Positions 20,024 to 27,013 of a DNA stretch of 64,000 nt are shown piece after piece; the first letter of the stretch is position 1, and every line of letters starts with the position of its first letter. The stretch comes from Candidatus Tepidiaquacella proteinivora (GTDB lineage Bacteria; Bacteroidota; Ignavibacteria; Tepidaquicellales; Tepidaquicellaceae). The notes under the pieces are model-generated. The model made no database searches, was not told the origin of the DNA, and saw nothing but the letters and a program-made list of their open reading frames with translations. The stretch is from contig CP054675.1 of the NCBI GenBank assembly GCA_013348845.1, forward strand, positions 496,001 through 560,000. The letters run 5' to 3'. The position numbers and the translations under genes were made by a program.

Positions 20024-20048
20024 AATTAATCCCTTTAAGGGATTAATT
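20024..20048. terminator. Palindromic hairpin between cDPGS-like gene and valS
   Basis: AATTAATCCC and GGGATTAATT pair around TTTAA (10-bp stem). It overlaps the last codons of valS on the minus strand. A short T-rich stretch lies on one side only, so terminator activity is a modest-confidence call. Confidence 0.4.
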
Positions 20049-22686
20049 CTTTCAATTTATTAATCTTTTTTATAGTCTCTTCACGCTTTTGTTTTTCTCT
20101 TTCAACTACTTCTCTGGAAGCTTTTTCAAGGAATTCTTTATTTGAAAGTTTTTTATCTAAACCATTTAAATAATTTTCAAGTTTTTCTAACTCTTGTTTG
20201 TACTTATTGATAAGGGCATTATTAGTTTCGTTATCGAGATTCGAACTAAGATGAAGTTCATAATTACTTAAAACTCTTGTAATATATTTTACGGATTTCA
20301 GGTTTTGTTTATCGATTATATATGAATTTACCTTACATAAAGAATTAATAAATATGCTTAATTCCGACATTAATTTATTCCTTAATTCATCACTTGCTAT
20401 TATATATAAATCACAAATATGCTTATTAGGAATCATACTTTCAATTTTCATATTTCTAACTGCATTAACAATTTCTTTAAATTCCTCAAACATTTCTTCT
20501 ATATCTAAATTAATATTTACCTCATTAAACTGCGGGAAATCTGATTTTGAAATAGACAAATCATCTCTTCCCTCTTGAATTAAATGCCATAATTCTTCAG
20601 TAACAAAAGGAATAGCAGGATGAAGCATTTTTAAAATCTGCTCATATATTTCTATTGCTGAATCTATAATACTTTTACTATACTCTTTATTTAAATTTAT
20701 TTTTACTTTAAGACATTCAATATACCAATCACAAAAATCACTCCAAACAAAGTTATATAAAGCTTTTGTATATTCGTTTAATCTGAATTCATTTAAATTC
20801 GTTGTAATTTCATTGAGTGTATGATTTAATCTACTAATAATCCATCTATCAATTAAATCCTGATTTAGTGTATCTTCAGACAGGTTTTTCATTGAATAAA
20901 TATTCTTCTTATTCATCATTAAGAATCTGCCGGCATTCCATAATTTTGTAATGAAATTTCTGCCTATTTCGGTTTTTTCTACATCGTATAAAACATCATT
21001 TCCAATTGGTGCAAGATAGATTAAAGTAAATCTTAGAGCATCGGTTCCATAATTTTCCATAACTTCAAGAGGATCAGGAGAATTCCCAAGAGTTTTAGAC
21101 ATTTTTCTCCCTTTACCATCTCTGATTATGGAATGAAAATATACATCCTTGAAAGGAATTTTCCCCATATATTCTAAACCTGCCATAATCATCCGCGCAA
21201 CCCATAGAAAAATGATATCTGCAGCAGTAGAGAGAAAATCAGTGGGATAATAATAATTTAATTCCTCATTGTTCTTATTTTTTTCCTCATCATTTTCCCA
21301 GTTAAAAACGCTAAAGGGCCAAAGCCATGAAGAAAACCAGGTGTCGAGTACATCTTCATCCTGAATCCAGTTTTCAGGGTTTTCAGGTGGATTTATATCA
21401 CAATACATCTCCCCTGTTTTTTTATTATACCAGATTGGAATCTGATGCCCCCACCACAACTGTCTTGAAATACACCAATCTCTTATGTTCTCCATCCAAT
21501 GGTTGTACACTTTAACATATCTTTCAGGATGAAATTTTATCAATCCTTTGTTAACAACTTCGATAGCGGGTTTAGCTAACTTATCCATCTTAACAAACCA
21601 CTGGTCAGAAATAATTGGTTCTATAACCGCTTGAGACCTGTCTGCTATGGCAATATTATGATTATAAGGTTCTTCTTTTTCTAAAAGTTTAAGTGATTTT
21701 AATTTTTTTACAACTCTTGTTCGTGCAGTATTGACATCTAATCCTTGAAATTCTCCGGCAATTTCATTTAAATGAGCATCCTCAGTCAGTATATTTATTA
21801 TTTCAAGATTATGTCGCTGTCCTACATCAAAATCATTCATATCGTGTCCCGGAGTAATTTTAAGTGCGCCTGTACCAAATTCCATATCAACATAAGAATC
21901 GCCTATTATTGGAACAACTCTATTTACCAGAGGAACTATAATTTTTTTACCGATGTATGATTTATATCTTTCATCATCAGGATTAACCGCAACTGCAGTA
22001 TCTCCGAACATTGTTTCAGGCCTTGTTGTAGCAATTACCAGGAATTCATCTTCATGTTTAAATAGCGGATATTTAATATAATACAATTTGTCCTTAACTT
22101 CCTTATAAGAGATTTCATCATCACTTAAAGCTGTTTTTGTAACGGGATCCCAATTAATTATTCTTTTCCCTCTATATATTAAACCTTTCTTATAAAGGTC
22201 AACAAAAACCTGTTTTACTGCTTTTGAAAGACCTTCATCAAGAGTAAATCTTTCCTTCGACCAATCAACAGAGACACCAAGTTTTCTTAATTGTTTCAGA
22301 ATAATTCCGCCGTGTTTTTCTTTCCAATCCCAGACAAATTTTAAAAATTCTTCTCTGGTAAAGTCTTTTCTTGATTTACCTTGTTGAGCAAGACTTTTCT
22401 CAACCATAATTTGTGTAGAAATTCCGGCATGGTCCATTCCGGGAACCCAACATACCTCATAACCGAGCATTCTTTTCCATCTGCAATAAATATCCTGAAT
22501 TGTATTGTTAAGAATATGTCCGATATGAAGAATCCCGGTTACATTAGGTGGAGGAATAACAACGCTGAATTTCTGTTTTTCCTTATTTACTTTAGAGTGA
22601 TAAATTTTTCTTTCTTCCCAAAAATTACGCCATTTATCTTCTATGGTTTTATAGTCATATTTCGGAGGGATTTCTTTCATAATCAT
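20035..22686 (-). CDS. valS: Valyl-tRNA synthetase
   Basis: A class Ia synthetase of 883 aa. The HIGH box is at residues 54-57 (GILHIGH), the KMSKS equivalent reads GRKMSKTLGN, and an editing domain (TTRPETMFGDTAVAV) lies between. The C-terminal coiled coil typical of ValRS is present (LENYLNGLDKKLSN onward). The start ATG at 22686 overlaps the parA stop as ATGA, so translation is likely coupled. The alternative ATG at 22680 would remove two residues. Confidence 0.98.
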   Translation of the reverse strand: MIMKEIPPKYDYKTIEDKWRNFWEERKIYHSKVNKEKQKFSVVIPPPNVTGILHIGHILNNTIQDIYCRWKRMLGYEVCWVPGMDHAGISTQIMVEKSLAQQGKSRKDFTREEFLKFVWDWKEKHGGIILKQLRKLGVSVDWSKERFTLDEGLSKAVKQVFVDLYKKGLIYRGKRIINWDPVTKTALSDDEISYKEVKDKLYYIKYPLFKHEDEFLVIATTRPETMFGDTAVAVNPDDERYKSYIGKKIIVPLVNRVVPIIGDSYVDMEFGTGALKITPGHDMNDFDVGQRHNLEIINILTEDAHLNEIAGEFQGLDVNTARTRVVKKLKSLKLLEKEEPYNHNIAIADRSQAVIEPIISDQWFVKMDKLAKPAIEVVNKGLIKFHPERYVKVYNHWMENIRDWCISRQLWWGHQIPIWYNKKTGEMYCDINPPENPENWIQDEDVLDTWFSSWLWPFSVFNWENDEEKNKNNEELNYYYPTDFLSTAADIIFLWVARMIMAGLEYMGKIPFKDVYFHSIIRDGKGRKMSKTLGNSPDPLEVMENYGTDALRFTLIYLAPIGNDVLYDVEKTEIGRNFITKLWNAGRFLMMNKKNIYSMKNLSEDTLNQDLIDRWIISRLNHTLNEITTNLNEFRLNEYTKALYNFVWSDFCDWYIECLKVKINLNKEYSKSIIDSAIEIYEQILKMLHPAIPFVTEELWHLIQEGRDDLSISKSDFPQFNEVNINLDIEEMFEEFKEIVNAVRNMKIESMIPNKHICDLYIIASDELRNKLMSELSIFINSLCKVNSYIIDKQNLKSVKYITRVLSNYELHLSSNLDNETNNALINKYKQELEKLENYLNGLDKKLSNKEFLEKASREVVEREKQKREETIKKINKLKELIP

Positions 22687-23456
22687 AATATATTTTCATT
22701 TTTACAAATAATTTCATAAGCAAGATCTAAAAATGCAATCGCACCAACGGAATTAATTCTATATAAACATAAGGGTTTTCCGTAAAATGTTGCTTCATTA
22801 AGTAAATTTGAAACTGGTATTACAGTATTTAAAATGTAATTTTTATATTTAAGTTTTAATTCTTTTTCAGAAATTTCAGTTACTTTAGAGTATTTTTCAT
22901 ACATATTAAATACTATACCCTCAATTTCAAGAACGGGATTTGTTGTATCTTTTATCCAATTAACAAATTGAATTAACTTATCAACTGCTTCAAGTGATAA
23001 GTGACCACTTCTGATTGGAATAAGTATCGAATTAGATGAATTAAGTGCATTAGTAGTAATTCCTGTTAAAATGGGTGGACAATCTATAATTATATAATCA
23101 TATTGATTTCTTATAGACTTTAATGATTTTTTCAGAACCGAACGGTCATTCGTAGATTTGGAAAATTTTTCATCAAGTCGTATTGAATTAATGTTTGCCG
23201 GGATAAAATGTAGATACTTTAATTCAGTGTTGTGAATAGTGAACTGAATTGATTTTGAAAGATTGAAAATATCGGAAATTCCGGCTTTAATTTTATTCTG
23301 TGTAAACCCAAGGGCAATAGCTGAAGCACCGAACGGGTCTGCATCTATTAGTAAAGTTTTTCTTTCCGCAACTGCTAATGAAGCCGCCAAATTAACAGCA
23401 ATGGTTGTTTTACCAACCCCTCCTTTAGGAATACAAACTGAAATAATTTTACTCAT
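22683..23456 (-). CDS. ParA/MinD-like ATPase (orphan)
   Basis: A deviant Walker A motif KGGVGKTT (residues 11-18), the signature Asp in LLIDADPFG and IIIDCPP (Walker B) identify a ParA-type ATPase of 257 aa. Such proteins position DNA, chemoreceptors or other cargo on the nucleoid. There is no ParB gene and no obvious parS-like repeat nearby, so the cargo is unknown. It precedes valS with an ATGA overlap. Confidence 0.85.
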   Translation of the reverse strand: MSKIISVCIPKGGVGKTTIAVNLAASLAVAERKTLLIDADPFGASAIALGFTQNKIKAGISDIFNLSKSIQFTIHNTELKYLHFIPANINSIRLDEKFSKSTNDRSVLKKSLKSIRNQYDYIIIDCPPILTGITTNALNSSNSILIPIRSGHLSLEAVDKLIQFVNWIKDTTNPVLEIEGIVFNMYEKYSKVTEISEKELKLKYKNYILNTVIPVSNLLNEATFYGKPLCLYRINSVGAIAFLDLAYEIICKNENIL

Positions 23457-23510
23457 TAATTCATTTAAAAAATTATAATCATAAAAAATATGATATTAAA
23501 ATTTCTTATT

Positions 23511-23518
23511 CAAACCTA
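23511..23518 (-). promoter_or_regulatory. Candidate -7 box for parA-valS
   Basis: The minus strand reads TAGGTTTG, matching TAnnTTTG, about 55 nt upstream of the parA ATG. A -33 TTG is not clear. Confidence 0.35.
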
Positions 23519-23552: not shown

Positions 23553-24833
23553 CTATAAATTAGAAAAAAAGATGTTGTTATTATTTATAACTGCAAAAGG
23601 CTTACACTGAACTAAAAAATTATTAAAGGGGGTATTTTTACTTTTGGAATAAAATTTTTCCTTATTTATTTTATAGCTAATATTTGTATCAAGTATTGTA
23701 AGATTGGCAGATTCACCTTCCCTGATATTTATTTGTTTTAGTCCTAAAATTTTTCTTGGGTTTATAGAAAGCATTTCTATCATTCTTTCAAAAGATATAA
23801 TATTATTTTTTACCAAATAAGTATATGTTAAACTTATCGTAGTTTCTAATCCTATTATTCCGAAAGGTGCAATACTCAAAGGCAATAACTTTTCATCATC
23901 TGAATGAGGAGCGTGGTCAGAACATATTACATCAATAATATTTTCAGATATTGCTTTTAAAATAGATTCTCTATCTTGTTTAGTTCTGAGTGGAGGGTTC
24001 ATCTTCGCATTTGTTCCGTATTTTAAGCAGTCGTCTTCTTCAAGTATAAAATGATGCGGGCAAACTTCGCAAGTTATGTTTAAACCTTCTTTTTTAGCAT
24101 CTCTTATTATATTTATAGATTTTTCACTTGATATATGCTGTATGTGATATCGTGAATCTATATTTTGTTTTACAAGTAAAATATCAGCTGAAATTACTGA
24201 AGATTCACTTTCAGCCGGAATGCCTTCAAGATTTAGTAATTTAGATATTTTTCCTTCATTTAAAACACCATTTTTATGGAGTTTGGAATTTTCTGCATGC
24301 TGAAGAAAAGGAAATTTAAATTTAGCGGATAATTCTAAACCTTTATTAAGCAATTCTGAATTAAGAACGGGACTTCCATCATCTGTAAAAGCAATCGCTC
24401 CTGCTTTCAGGCAACCTTCAATATCTGACAAGTGCTTACCATTTCTTTCTTTGGTCAGACAAGCAGTTGTAAATATATCAATAATGTTTCCCTTTGATTT
24501 TTCTTTAATATAATTTATAATTTCGGGGTTGTCAACAGGAGGAGTTGTATTAGGCATTAATAGCACACCTGTAAATCCACCATTTGCGGCAGATTGTGAA
24601 CCTGTAAAAATATCTTCCTTATGAGTTTGACCGGGTTCTCTGAAATGGACATGCATATCAAAAAAACCTGGTACAGCTGTCTTATCCGATAAATCAAGTT
24701 GTTGAATGCCGTTTATATTAATAGCTTCGGTTGTAATTTTTTCAAATTTACCGTTCCGAATTAAAATGTTAAGAACCTGATTTAAATTATCTATAGGTGA
24801 GACGACATTAACATTTTTAAGGATTATATCCAT
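23553..24833 (-). CDS. pyrC: Dihydroorotase
   Basis: An amidohydrolase of 426 aa that cyclises carbamoyl-aspartate to dihydroorotate in pyrimidine synthesis. Metal ligands His61 and His63 and substrate-binding Arg65 are in DMHVHFREPG; other family marks are LLMPNTTPPVDN, IQHISS and CSDHAPHSDDEK. This is the class I type. The ATG at 24831-24833 is only 3 nt from the 3' end of the tRNA-Val gene on the same strand, leaving no space for a leader if the tRNA is cut out. No other internal Met fits the N-terminal strand, so the start is secure. Confidence 0.96.
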   Translation of the reverse strand: MDIILKNVNVVSPIDNLNQVLNILIRNGKFEKITTEAININGIQQLDLSDKTAVPGFFDMHVHFREPGQTHKEDIFTGSQSAANGGFTGVLLMPNTTPPVDNPEIINYIKEKSKGNIIDIFTTACLTKERNGKHLSDIEGCLKAGAIAFTDDGSPVLNSELLNKGLELSAKFKFPFLQHAENSKLHKNGVLNEGKISKLLNLEGIPAESESSVISADILLVKQNIDSRYHIQHISSEKSINIIRDAKKEGLNITCEVCPHHFILEEDDCLKYGTNAKMNPPLRTKQDRESILKAISENIIDVICSDHAPHSDDEKLLPLSIAPFGIIGLETTISLTYTYLVKNNIISFERMIEMLSINPRKILGLKQINIREGESANLTILDTNISYKINKEKFYSKSKNTPFNNFLVQCKPFAVINNNNIFFSNL

Positions 24834-24836
24834 CTG

Positions 24837-24910
24837 TGGGCAATACAGGATTCGAACCTGTGACCTCTTCCGTGTGAAGGAAGCGCGCTAACCAACTGCG
24901 CCAATTGCCC
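24837..24910 (-). tRNA. tRNA-Val (anticodon CAC)
   Basis: The minus strand folds as a complete cloverleaf of 74 nt: acceptor GGGCAAT/ATTGCCC plus discriminator A, D arm GCGC/GCGC, anticodon stem CTTCC/GGAAG with loop TTCACAC (anticodon CAC, reading GUG), and T arm ACAGG-TTCGAAT-CCTGT. The CCA end is not encoded. It sits exactly between mlaE (stop 3 nt upstream) and pyrC (ATG 3 nt downstream), all on the same strand, so it is likely processed from their common transcript. Confidence 0.96.
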
Positions 24911-24913
24911 AGA

Positions 24914-25696
24914 TTAGCCACCAATAAGGAAATTCCACAATAATGAATCAAGAATTAAAATCACAGCAGCAGAAATAACGAAAGATTTAATTGTAGAAAG
25001 TCCGACGCCTTGAGCACCTTCAGTCGTTTTAAAACCATAAAAGCAACCAATAGAAGAAACAGAAACGCCAAAGAACAGAGCTTTAATAATAGCAGCAACA
25101 ACGTCTTTCACAAGAAAATTATTCCGAAATCCATTCATAAAAGAAGTAGGTGGAACTTCAAGAAAAACCACAGCTGCAAGATAAGAACCAAAAATTGCAA
25201 CAGCACTTGCATAAATAACAAGAATGGGCATCATAAGTGTTGTTGCAACAACTCTTGGCATTGCAAGATATCTTACAGGATTTATTGCCATAGATTCAAG
25301 AGCGTCTATTTGTTCTGTAACTTTCATAGTTCCAATTTCCGCTGATATAGAAGCACCTACTCTACCAGCAAGAACAATAGCAGAAAGGACGGGACCGAGT
25401 TCAAGAATAATTGCTTTGGAAGTAGCGGAACCAAGAAAATTTTTCGAGATTAAATCCCCTATCTGATATGATGCTTGCCAGGAAGCAACCACACCAGTGA
25501 AAAATCCTATAATTGAAACAAGTAAAAGAGAATTAACCCCAATATGAACCATCTGGTCAATAATAAGTTTCCTATCTTTAAAAACTCTATGTAAAGTTGA
25601 CAAAATACCGACAAAGAGAATTGAAAAATTCCCAATGTCAGTAAAAAAATTTATAAATCTTTCATACAATATATTTATAAATTTTTTTGTGTACAT
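24914..25696 (-). CDS. mlaE: MlaE-family ABC transporter permease
   Basis: A five- to six-helix permease (260 aa) of the phospholipid/lipid-asymmetry MlaFEDB type. Family hallmarks are ELGPVLSAIVLAGRVGASISAEIGTM, VTEQIDALESMAINPVRYLAMPR and a C-terminal GAQGVGLSTIKSFVISAA. No MlaF ATPase or MlaD is adjacent, so partners are elsewhere. The gene is 6 nt after the CorC-like gene and its stop is 3 nt from the tRNA. Confidence 0.93.
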   Translation of the reverse strand: MYTKKFINILYERFINFFTDIGNFSILFVGILSTLHRVFKDRKLIIDQMVHIGVNSLLLVSIIGFFTGVVASWQASYQIGDLISKNFLGSATSKAIILELGPVLSAIVLAGRVGASISAEIGTMKVTEQIDALESMAINPVRYLAMPRVVATTLMMPILVIYASAVAIFGSYLAAVVFLEVPPTSFMNGFRNNFLVKDVVAAIIKALFFGVSVSSIGCFYGFKTTEGAQGVGLSTIKSFVISAAVILILDSLLWNFLIGG

Positions 25697-25702
25697 AATA
25701 TT

Positions 25703-27013
25703 TTATAAAACTTTTTTCTGAATTTTTACTTGTAATAATTTATTTCCAGCTTTCTTAGTAATGATAAAAATCAATCCTTTGTAATCAATTCTTTCATAAA
25801 TCTCCGGAATATGTCCAGTAACATACTGTAAGAAACCACTTAATGTCTGATATTCATCAGGATTTTCCGGGATATCGCAATTAAAATACTTATTAAATTC
25901 TTTAATTTCAATATTCGGATTTATCAAGTAAATTCCCAATTTATCTTTTTGAATTTTTGAAGTTTCTACATCATATTCGTCTTCAATTTCTCCGACAATT
26001 TCTTCAATAATATCTTCCAGAGTAACCAGTCCTTCGACACCTCCGTGTTCATTAACTACAATTCCCATATGGATCCTTTTCCTCTGGAAGTCTTTTAATA
26101 TTTCACCAATCCTTTTCGTTTCAGGTACAAAAGTGGCAGTCCTGAGAATATCATTTAATACAATAAGATCCCTATGTTCAGCAGCGCTAATTAAATCTTT
26201 TGAATATAAAATTCCGATTATATTATCTATTGTTTCTTTATAAACCGGTATTCTTGAAAATCCCTGTTCTATAATTGTTTCGATAATTTTATCTCTTGGA
26301 GAATCTATATCAATTGCGACAATATTGTTTCTCGGTACCATAATATCTTTTGCCATTTTATCATTAAATTCAAAAATCTTTTCAATTAACTGATGTTCTG
26401 TAGAATCAATTACACCAGATTTTACTCCTTCATCAATAATAAACCTGATTTCTTCTTCAGAACTAATTTTATCCATTTTTGAAATTGGTTCGACTCTTAT
26501 TAACTTTAGAACAAAATTACCTGTCTTTTCTATAATAAAAATAAAAGGTCTGAAAATTTTATAGAAAAGTTTCATAAAAGAATCTAACCAGAAAGAAACA
26601 CTCATTGATTTTCTGATAGCAACTACTTTAGGAACAAGTTCACCAAGTACAATTGTTGTAAATGTTATAAGTGATATTCCAATTACCACTGTCAATGTAC
26701 CCGATATTTTATCATGTAAGCCAAAAAGAGTAAATAATGGATAAAATATTTTATGCATCACACCTTCTCCAAACCATCCTAAAATTAAATTGACAAGAGT
26801 TATTCCTAATTGAGTAGCTGAGATATATTTTTCTATGTTAGCTTTAGTATTACTAACTAAAAGAGCTTTCTTATTCCCCTTTCGGATTAAAGTAGCAAGT
26901 TCTGAGTCACGAATTCTGATGAGTGAATACTCGAATGCAACGAATGCCCCGTTAATAAAAATCAGGGCAAATATAACAAGTACTTCAAACAGCAGCGATT
27001 CAATATTTTCCAT
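25703..27013 (-). CDS. CNNM/CorC-type hemolysin-family membrane protein
   Basis: The protein (436 aa) has a DUF21/CNNM domain of about four helices (residues 1-190, with YISATQLGITLVNLILGWFGEG), two CBS domains (about 205-340, MVPRNNIVAI and GGVEGLVTLEDIIEEIVGEI), and a CorC_HlyC C-terminal domain (about 355-432). Family members export magnesium or cobalt or protect against their excess. The name hemolysin is historical. It is in a minus-strand operon between nuoI and mlaE. Confidence 0.92.
   Translation of the reverse strand: MENIESLLFEVLVIFALIFINGAFVAFEYSLIRIRDSELATLIRKGNKKALLVSNTKANIEKYISATQLGITLVNLILGWFGEGVMHKIFYPLFTLFGLHDKISGTLTVVIGISLITFTTIVLGELVPKVVAIRKSMSVSFWLDSFMKLFYKIFRPFIFIIEKTGNFVLKLIRVEPISKMDKISSEEEIRFIIDEGVKSGVIDSTEHQLIEKIFEFNDKMAKDIMVPRNNIVAIDIDSPRDKIIETIIEQGFSRIPVYKETIDNIIGILYSKDLISAAEHRDLIVLNDILRTATFVPETKRIGEILKDFQRKRIHMGIVVNEHGGVEGLVTLEDIIEEIVGEIEDEYDVETSKIQKDKLGIYLINPNIEIKEFNKYFNCDIPENPDEYQTLSGFLQYVTGHIPEIYERIDYKGLIFIITKKAGNKLLQVKIQKKVL

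Follow-up and report, generated by a model that had tools for sequence, protein, structure and literature searches.

A valine tRNA gene three nucleotides from each of its neighbors, and how the pyrC message of Candidatus Tepidiaquacella proteinivora may begin

Background

How is a protein gene translated when its start codon lies 3 nt beyond the end of a tRNA gene on the same strand? The question is raised by pyrC, an essential pyrimidine-making gene, in the genome of Candidatus Tepidiaquacella proteinivora (G000; 2,403,876 bases, one contig). The stretch of DNA analyzed here, called the window, is 64 kb long, and coordinates refer to positions within it. The gene for tRNA-Val(CAC) lies between mlaE and pyrC with almost no spacer on either side. 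The reading favored here, held with about even confidence, is that this tRNA belongs to a compact mlaE-tRNA-pyrC unit and that its excision releases a near-leaderless pyrC mRNA. Cotranscription and near-leaderless release are favored because of the anatomy of the locus and the missing promoter.

Organization of the locus

The tRNA and both of its neighbors lie on the minus strand. Features are given below from the upstream to the downstream end of that strand, each with its basis in parentheses.

25703..27013, minus strand: CNNM/CorC-like (GldE-like) membrane protein, on the upstream side of mlaE and separated from it by 6 nt (profile match)
25880..25911, minus strand: best upstream promoter-like site, TTGAAA-N17-TATTTTAAT, scoring 15.5 bits and lying within the CNNM gene (consensus score only)
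24914..25696, minus strand: mlaE-type ABC transporter permease (Pfam PF02405)
24916-24914, minus strand: mlaE stop codon, TAA (sequence)
24911..24913, minus strand: TCT spacer from the mlaE stop to the tRNA 5' end (sequence)
24837..24910, minus strand: tRNA-Val(CAC), N1 to discriminator A73 (A at 24837), CCA not encoded (sequence, ARAGORN, Rfam)
24834..24836, minus strand: CAG spacer from the discriminator to the pyrC ATG (sequence)
24836, minus strand: C74, first base of the CAG spacer, which may remain on the mature tRNA (tRNA gene comparison)
24833-24831, minus strand: pyrC ATG (sequence)
23553..24833, minus strand: pyrC, dihydroorotase, class I (TIGR00857)
23482..23513, minus strand: promoter-like site, TTGAAT-N17-TATTTTTTA, 15.3 bits, between pyrC and parA (consensus score only)
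22683..23456, minus strand: ParA/MinD-like ATPase, downstream of pyrC (profile match)
20035..22686, minus strand: valS, valine--tRNA ligase, which charges tRNA-Val; overlaps the end of parA (profile match)

A first-pass annotation of the DNA had placed the tRNA 3 nt from the mlaE stop and 3 nt from the pyrC ATG and had described it as lacking an encoded CCA end. Both gaps and the missing CCA are confirmed by the sequence, and the tRNA is called by ARAGORN (tRNA-Val(CAC), 24836-24910) and by Rfam (RF00005 at 24837-24910; 72.7 bits vs a gathering score of 29). The pyrC product scores 393.9 bits against TIGR00857, over the family cut-off, and the MlaE permease 241.5 bits against PF02405. A single copy of pyrC was found in the genome at E <= 1e-20. 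The same-strand spacing leading up to pyrC is operon-like (CNNM gene, 6 nt, mlaE, 3 nt, tRNA, 3 nt, pyrC).

The pyrC start codon

The ATG at 24833-24831 is the only workable pyrC start because the next in-frame ATG, GTG, or TTG is codon 60 and the frame upstream runs into a TAG inside the tRNA before any such codon. The 20 nt 5' of the start are tRNA acceptor and T-arm sequence, the bases at -3 and -6 are both C, and no space is left for a Shine-Dalgarno (SD) sequence. A pyrC start without an SD sequence is normal for the window, since SD-like motifs are not enriched there (before 2/39 long ORFs, with 1.0 expected by shuffling). Passages of a study of F. johnsoniae describe initiation that is favored by an A at positions -3 and -6 and by a lack of pairing from -20 to +20 (PMC6847099). 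By that measure, the pyrC start, with its two C residues and the tRNA stem upstream, is predicted to be a poor initiation site while the tRNA remains attached. The same study describes mostly leadered transcripts, the leader exceeding 10 nt in 87% of the transcripts for which a promoter is probable (PMC6847099), which counts against a processing model that ends in a near-leaderless message.

Proposed processing of the transcript

The favored reading, put together from DNA, proceeds as follows. Transcription would begin inside the CNNM-mlaE genes or ahead of them. The transcript would be cut by RNase P 3 nt past the mlaE stop and by a 3' endonuclease at the discriminator or one base beyond. The released pyrC mRNA would then start 2-3 nt before the AUG and be translated near-leaderless. 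On uncut RNA, the folded tRNA would occupy the place of the 30S subunit at the pyrC start. Excision is expected to be necessary for efficient pyrC translation because the folded tRNA would fill this site.

Close spacing in the genome and in the family

A tRNA ahead of a protein gene is common in this genome, and pyrC is the extreme case. Counted from N73, with the case of the 60-aa secE added by eye, a same-strand CDS starts within about 32 nt of 8/42 tRNAs; the distances are 3 nt for pyrC and then 18, 18, 21, 21, 24, 27, and 32 nt. Profiles name six of the seven other genes (nuoM, xseA, clpX, thrS, secE, and a branched-chain amino-acid permease-like gene whose match is under its curated cut-off). 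Only tRNA-Val(CAC), one of the 42 tRNAs, comes this near to a downstream CDS, so the genome is not generally organized by tRNA punctuation. All three tRNA-Val genes closely precede a protein gene, tRNA-Val(GAC) (L161, G000:C1:1168383-1171456) lying 21 nt before thrS and tRNA-Val(TAC) (L173) 18 nt before the permease-like gene.

Among the 29 genomes of the family, 14 carry a tRNA-Val directly upstream of pyrC, 13 of them as a clean CAC gene and one as a gapped copy. The 13 clean genes occur once per genome and always just upstream of pyrC. In one genome (G006; L006, G006:C364), the tRNA-Val has Ns inside and a 3' half that reads GAC; this CAC/GAC hybrid is probably an assembly join. No tRNA-Val(CAC) was found in the remaining 15/29 genomes searched. 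From N73 to pyrC, the 14 distances are 3 nt in the window's genome, 3 nt and 2 nt in the two other members of its genus, g1 (G002 and G001), and 9, 9, 12, 13, 15, 15, 22, 23, 28, 32, and 134 nt elsewhere. Of the conservation that the first-pass annotation left to be checked, the adjacency of tRNA and pyrC extends to 14/29 genomes, and the gap of 2-3 nt is limited to one genus (3/3 genomes, with 9-134 nt in the others). The spacer reads CAG in the window's genome, CTG in G002, and CA in G001, and PyrC identity to the window's protein in the two other members is 75% and 58%.

The gap between the mlaE stop and the tRNA is 3 nt in the window's genome, 4 nt in G002, and 7-124 nt in ten other readable genomes, with G026 left out as its locus is cut by a contig end. 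In G001, no mlaE match occurs in the 304 nt upstream that the contig holds, and the 2-nt gap before pyrC is kept. Most relatives that lack the tRNA have, ahead of pyrC, a gene whose end we take to be the C-terminus of pyrB; in the window's genome, pyrB is about 55 kb from pyrC. A single clean gain of the tRNA was considered with a PyrC tree of 33 rows, the deep forks of which are open; on this tree the tRNA label needs two changes, a number that 0/500 shuffles came down to.

The closest rival to the favored reading is ordinary compaction, which we regard as somewhat unlikely. Ribosomes would start on uncut RNA in the fraction of transcripts whose tRNA is unfolded or has yet to fold, and the tRNA and PyrC would come from different molecules, unregulated. 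The 8/42 tRNAs that lie near downstream genes speak for it, 3 nt being one genus's extreme where the family spans 2-134 nt. The failure to find tRNA-Val(CAC) in 15 other genomes of the family points the same way, as the cell may be able to do without this tRNA and the amount made may be of little consequence. Against compaction stand the tRNA stem sequence in the 20 nt before the ATG, with its C at -3 and -6, and a gap that stays at 2-3 nt across three diverged species. The latter supports the processing reading, the gap having been held despite PyrC divergence to 75% and 58% identity.

The downstream genes show an order of their own. The tRNA lies two genes upstream of valS, and the order pyrC-parA-valS goes far back in this family; pyrC and valS share a contig in 26/29 family genomes, including genomes without tRNA-Val(CAC), and are on different contigs in three. 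A regulatory operon pair of tRNA-Val and valS was considered and is retained as no more than an aside, since the order also occurs in tRNA-less genomes and the promoter-like site at 23482..23513 separates pyrC from parA-valS, which may be transcribed separately from pyrC.

Predicted folding around the start codon

Predicted folds do not help the processing reading. When 101 nt are folded, the cut pyrC mRNA is predicted to be mostly paired at its 5' end, with an unpaired probability of about 0.2 over the leader and the AU of the AUG. In the minimum-energy fold of the uncut context, the tail of mlaE pairs with the start region and the acceptor stem is not closed. When everything up to acceptor base 7 is forced to be unpaired, the unpaired probability rises from 0.14 to 0.80 for the A of the AUG and from 0.15 to 0.95 for the U.

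This last result bears on a coupled switch, in which a ribosome ending mlaE opens the acceptor stem and each transcript gives either PyrC or the tRNA. A ribosome at the mlaE TAA would shield roughly 7 nt at the 5' end of the tRNA, and the position of that stop, 3 nt before the tRNA, agrees with such a switch, as does the predicted opening of the A and U. The G of the AUG, however, remains paired in the opened fold (unpaired probability 0.05), and G001 has its 2-nt gap without an mlaE match in the upstream sequence on its contig. We consider a switch quite improbable and retain excision from a common transcript as the favored reading.

Search for a promoter

Promoters were sought with a two-block model trained on the 36 other tRNAs of the window's genome and judged by leave-one-out (95% null level, 8.8). 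The tRNA promoter motif of this genome is TTGAAA-N17-TATtTTtgA, mostly 5-18 nt from the tRNA. The model is weak, with 25/36 tRNAs over the 95% null level and 11/36 under it. In the 70 nt ahead of tRNA-Val(CAC), the highest-scoring site reaches 3.5 (P 0.43; rank 33/37), and the G002 ortholog also scores 3.5. Promoter-like sites lie just upstream of the tRNA in G010 (11.9), G022 (12.7), and G001 (11.3), all with P of 0.01 or less. Seven other scored orthologs reach 0.6 to 8.3, all under 8.8, and a recognizable tRNA promoter is therefore not general in the family.

The first-pass annotation had set a separate pyrC promoter inside or downstream of the tRNA against its own account. The model found no site above 0 bits inside tRNA-Val or at the pyrC start, and no promoter-like site just before the tRNA. 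Cotranscription from upstream is the simplest reading because the tRNA and its G002 ortholog are without a promoter-like site and none lies inside the tRNA. On that reading, the tRNA would have no promoter of its own in the window's genome and in G002, where the mlaE-tRNA spacer would have shrunk to 3-4 nt, and the site at 25880..25911 is a candidate promoter for an mlaE-tRNA-pyrC transcript. A hidden promoter over the tRNA or the end of mlaE, giving a primary pyrC transcript that is leaderless or carries the tRNA, appears distinctly improbable: the model does miss sites (the 11/36 above) and three relatives have a promoter-like site before the tRNA, but the best upstream score at this locus is 3.5 (P 0.43) and sites inside the tRNA or at the ATG fall below 0.

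The 3' end of the tRNA

The cut at the 3' side of the tRNA raises the question of which enzyme would make it. CCA is not encoded in 37/42 tRNAs of the genome, and tRNA-Val, CCA-less and with a 3' extension, has the form of an RNase Z substrate. Canonical RNase Z (TIGR02651) reaches at best 46.7 bits in this genome vs a cut-off of 293, and none of 59 genomes searched among the relatives, the window's genome included, is above the cut-off, the nearest being G048 with 269 bits. In a sample of the phylum, an RNase Z match at E <= 1e-30 is present in 1/15 genomes of the class and in 29/45 others. The 16/45 sampled genomes outside the class without a match belong to families f19, f21, and f23, with 13 in f21.

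The window's genome has eight HxHxDH motif sites; all were read by eye, and neither RNase Z nor RNase J was recognized among them. A 256-aa protein comes closest, but its relatives in the PDB are PhnP and beta-lactamase-like proteins without a name rather than RNase Z. RNase PH is above its cut-off in 0/12 genomes tested, among them the window's genome. That neither enzyme exceeds its cut-off counts against the processing model.

The base after the discriminator is unusually regular. Each of the 37 CCA-less tRNAs in the window's genome encodes C74. Across nine Bacteroidota genomes (the full tRNA set of the window's genome plus ten regions from each of eight others), 148/149 CCA-less tRNAs encode it, whereas C at 75 is rare. 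At other loci of the family, 28/28 well-paired CCA-less tRNAs have it. The idea that C74 is kept because RNase Z is missing was rejected, as C74 is equally regular in genomes with RNase Z (in the regions read, 14/14 in G081, 17/17 in G108, 14/14 in G060, and 12/12 in G048); it may serve throughout the phylum as a signal for processing or for RNase P.

Because all 37 CCA-less tRNAs encode C74, the tRNA-free spacer before pyrC is possibly just 2 nt. The 3' cut may fall after C74, and the pyrC leader would therefore be 2 nt. The leader of 3 nt or less proposed in the first-pass annotation would accordingly be 3 nt if the cut falls at the discriminator and 2 nt if the tRNA retains C74. A bolder version of the processing reading, in which an RNase Z-independent nuclease makes the near-leaderless pyrC mRNA, tRNA maturation gates PyrC synthesis, and a new 3' route is at work, is unlikely. 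Were it true, bacterial tRNA punctuation would be exposed together with a new route of tRNA 3' maturation. If processing makes the pyrC 5' end, nature would have supplied in this locus a reporter for how CCA-less tRNAs get their 3' ends where the usual enzyme was not found, and it would test whether ribosomes of an SD-ignoring phylum accept near-leaderless processed messages.

Comparison with known systems

Parts of the proposed route have counterparts elsewhere. In Streptococcus oligofermentans, passages of one study describe RNase Z as an essential enzyme that processes CCA-less pre-tRNAs cotranscribed with other genes (PMC8549757). The locus described here likewise has a CCA-less tRNA with a long 3' extension that needs removal just past the discriminator, whereas no member of the RNase Z family passes the cut-off here. 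For S. coelicolor and mycobacteria, parts of two studies describe leaderless mRNAs that come from promoters at the AUG (PMC4681348, PMC4633059). The pyrC message would resemble these in its AUG start, its lack of an SD sequence, and an expected 5' end a few nucleotides from the AUG. In those bacteria, however, the 5' end is the transcription start, and here processing would make it, leaving another kind of 5' phosphate. Open-licence PMC yielded no paper on a bacterial tRNA a few nucleotides from a start codon and none on RNase Z in Ignavibacteria, which is no proof of absence in either case.

The E. coli secG-leuU operon, which Mohanty and Kushner are said to have described in 2008, is a mixed tRNA-protein operon with the tRNA after the protein gene. 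Both loci hold tRNA and protein genes close together on one strand, with a tRNA that needs release by processing; unlike leuU, the tRNA here also precedes a protein gene, by 3 nt.

In animal mitochondria, the excision of tRNAs from transcripts sets the ends of mRNAs (tRNA punctuation). As in mitochondria, the tRNA stands between same-strand genes with almost no spacer (3 + 3 nt; 4 + 3 nt in G002), and excision would set both the 3' end of the mlaE mRNA and the near-leaderless 5' end of the pyrC mRNA. In contrast to mitochondria, the arrangement is one locus in a 2.4-Mb bacterial genome, with 1/42 tRNAs involved and no canonical RNase Z found. Because the genome is organized otherwise and the locus is known from DNA alone, it is not a member of the mitochondrial system. 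If processing does make the pyrC 5' end, this bacterium would, like mitochondria, use a tRNA as a boundary between mRNAs, and its locus would work like mitochondrial tRNA punctuation in the form of a local compaction.
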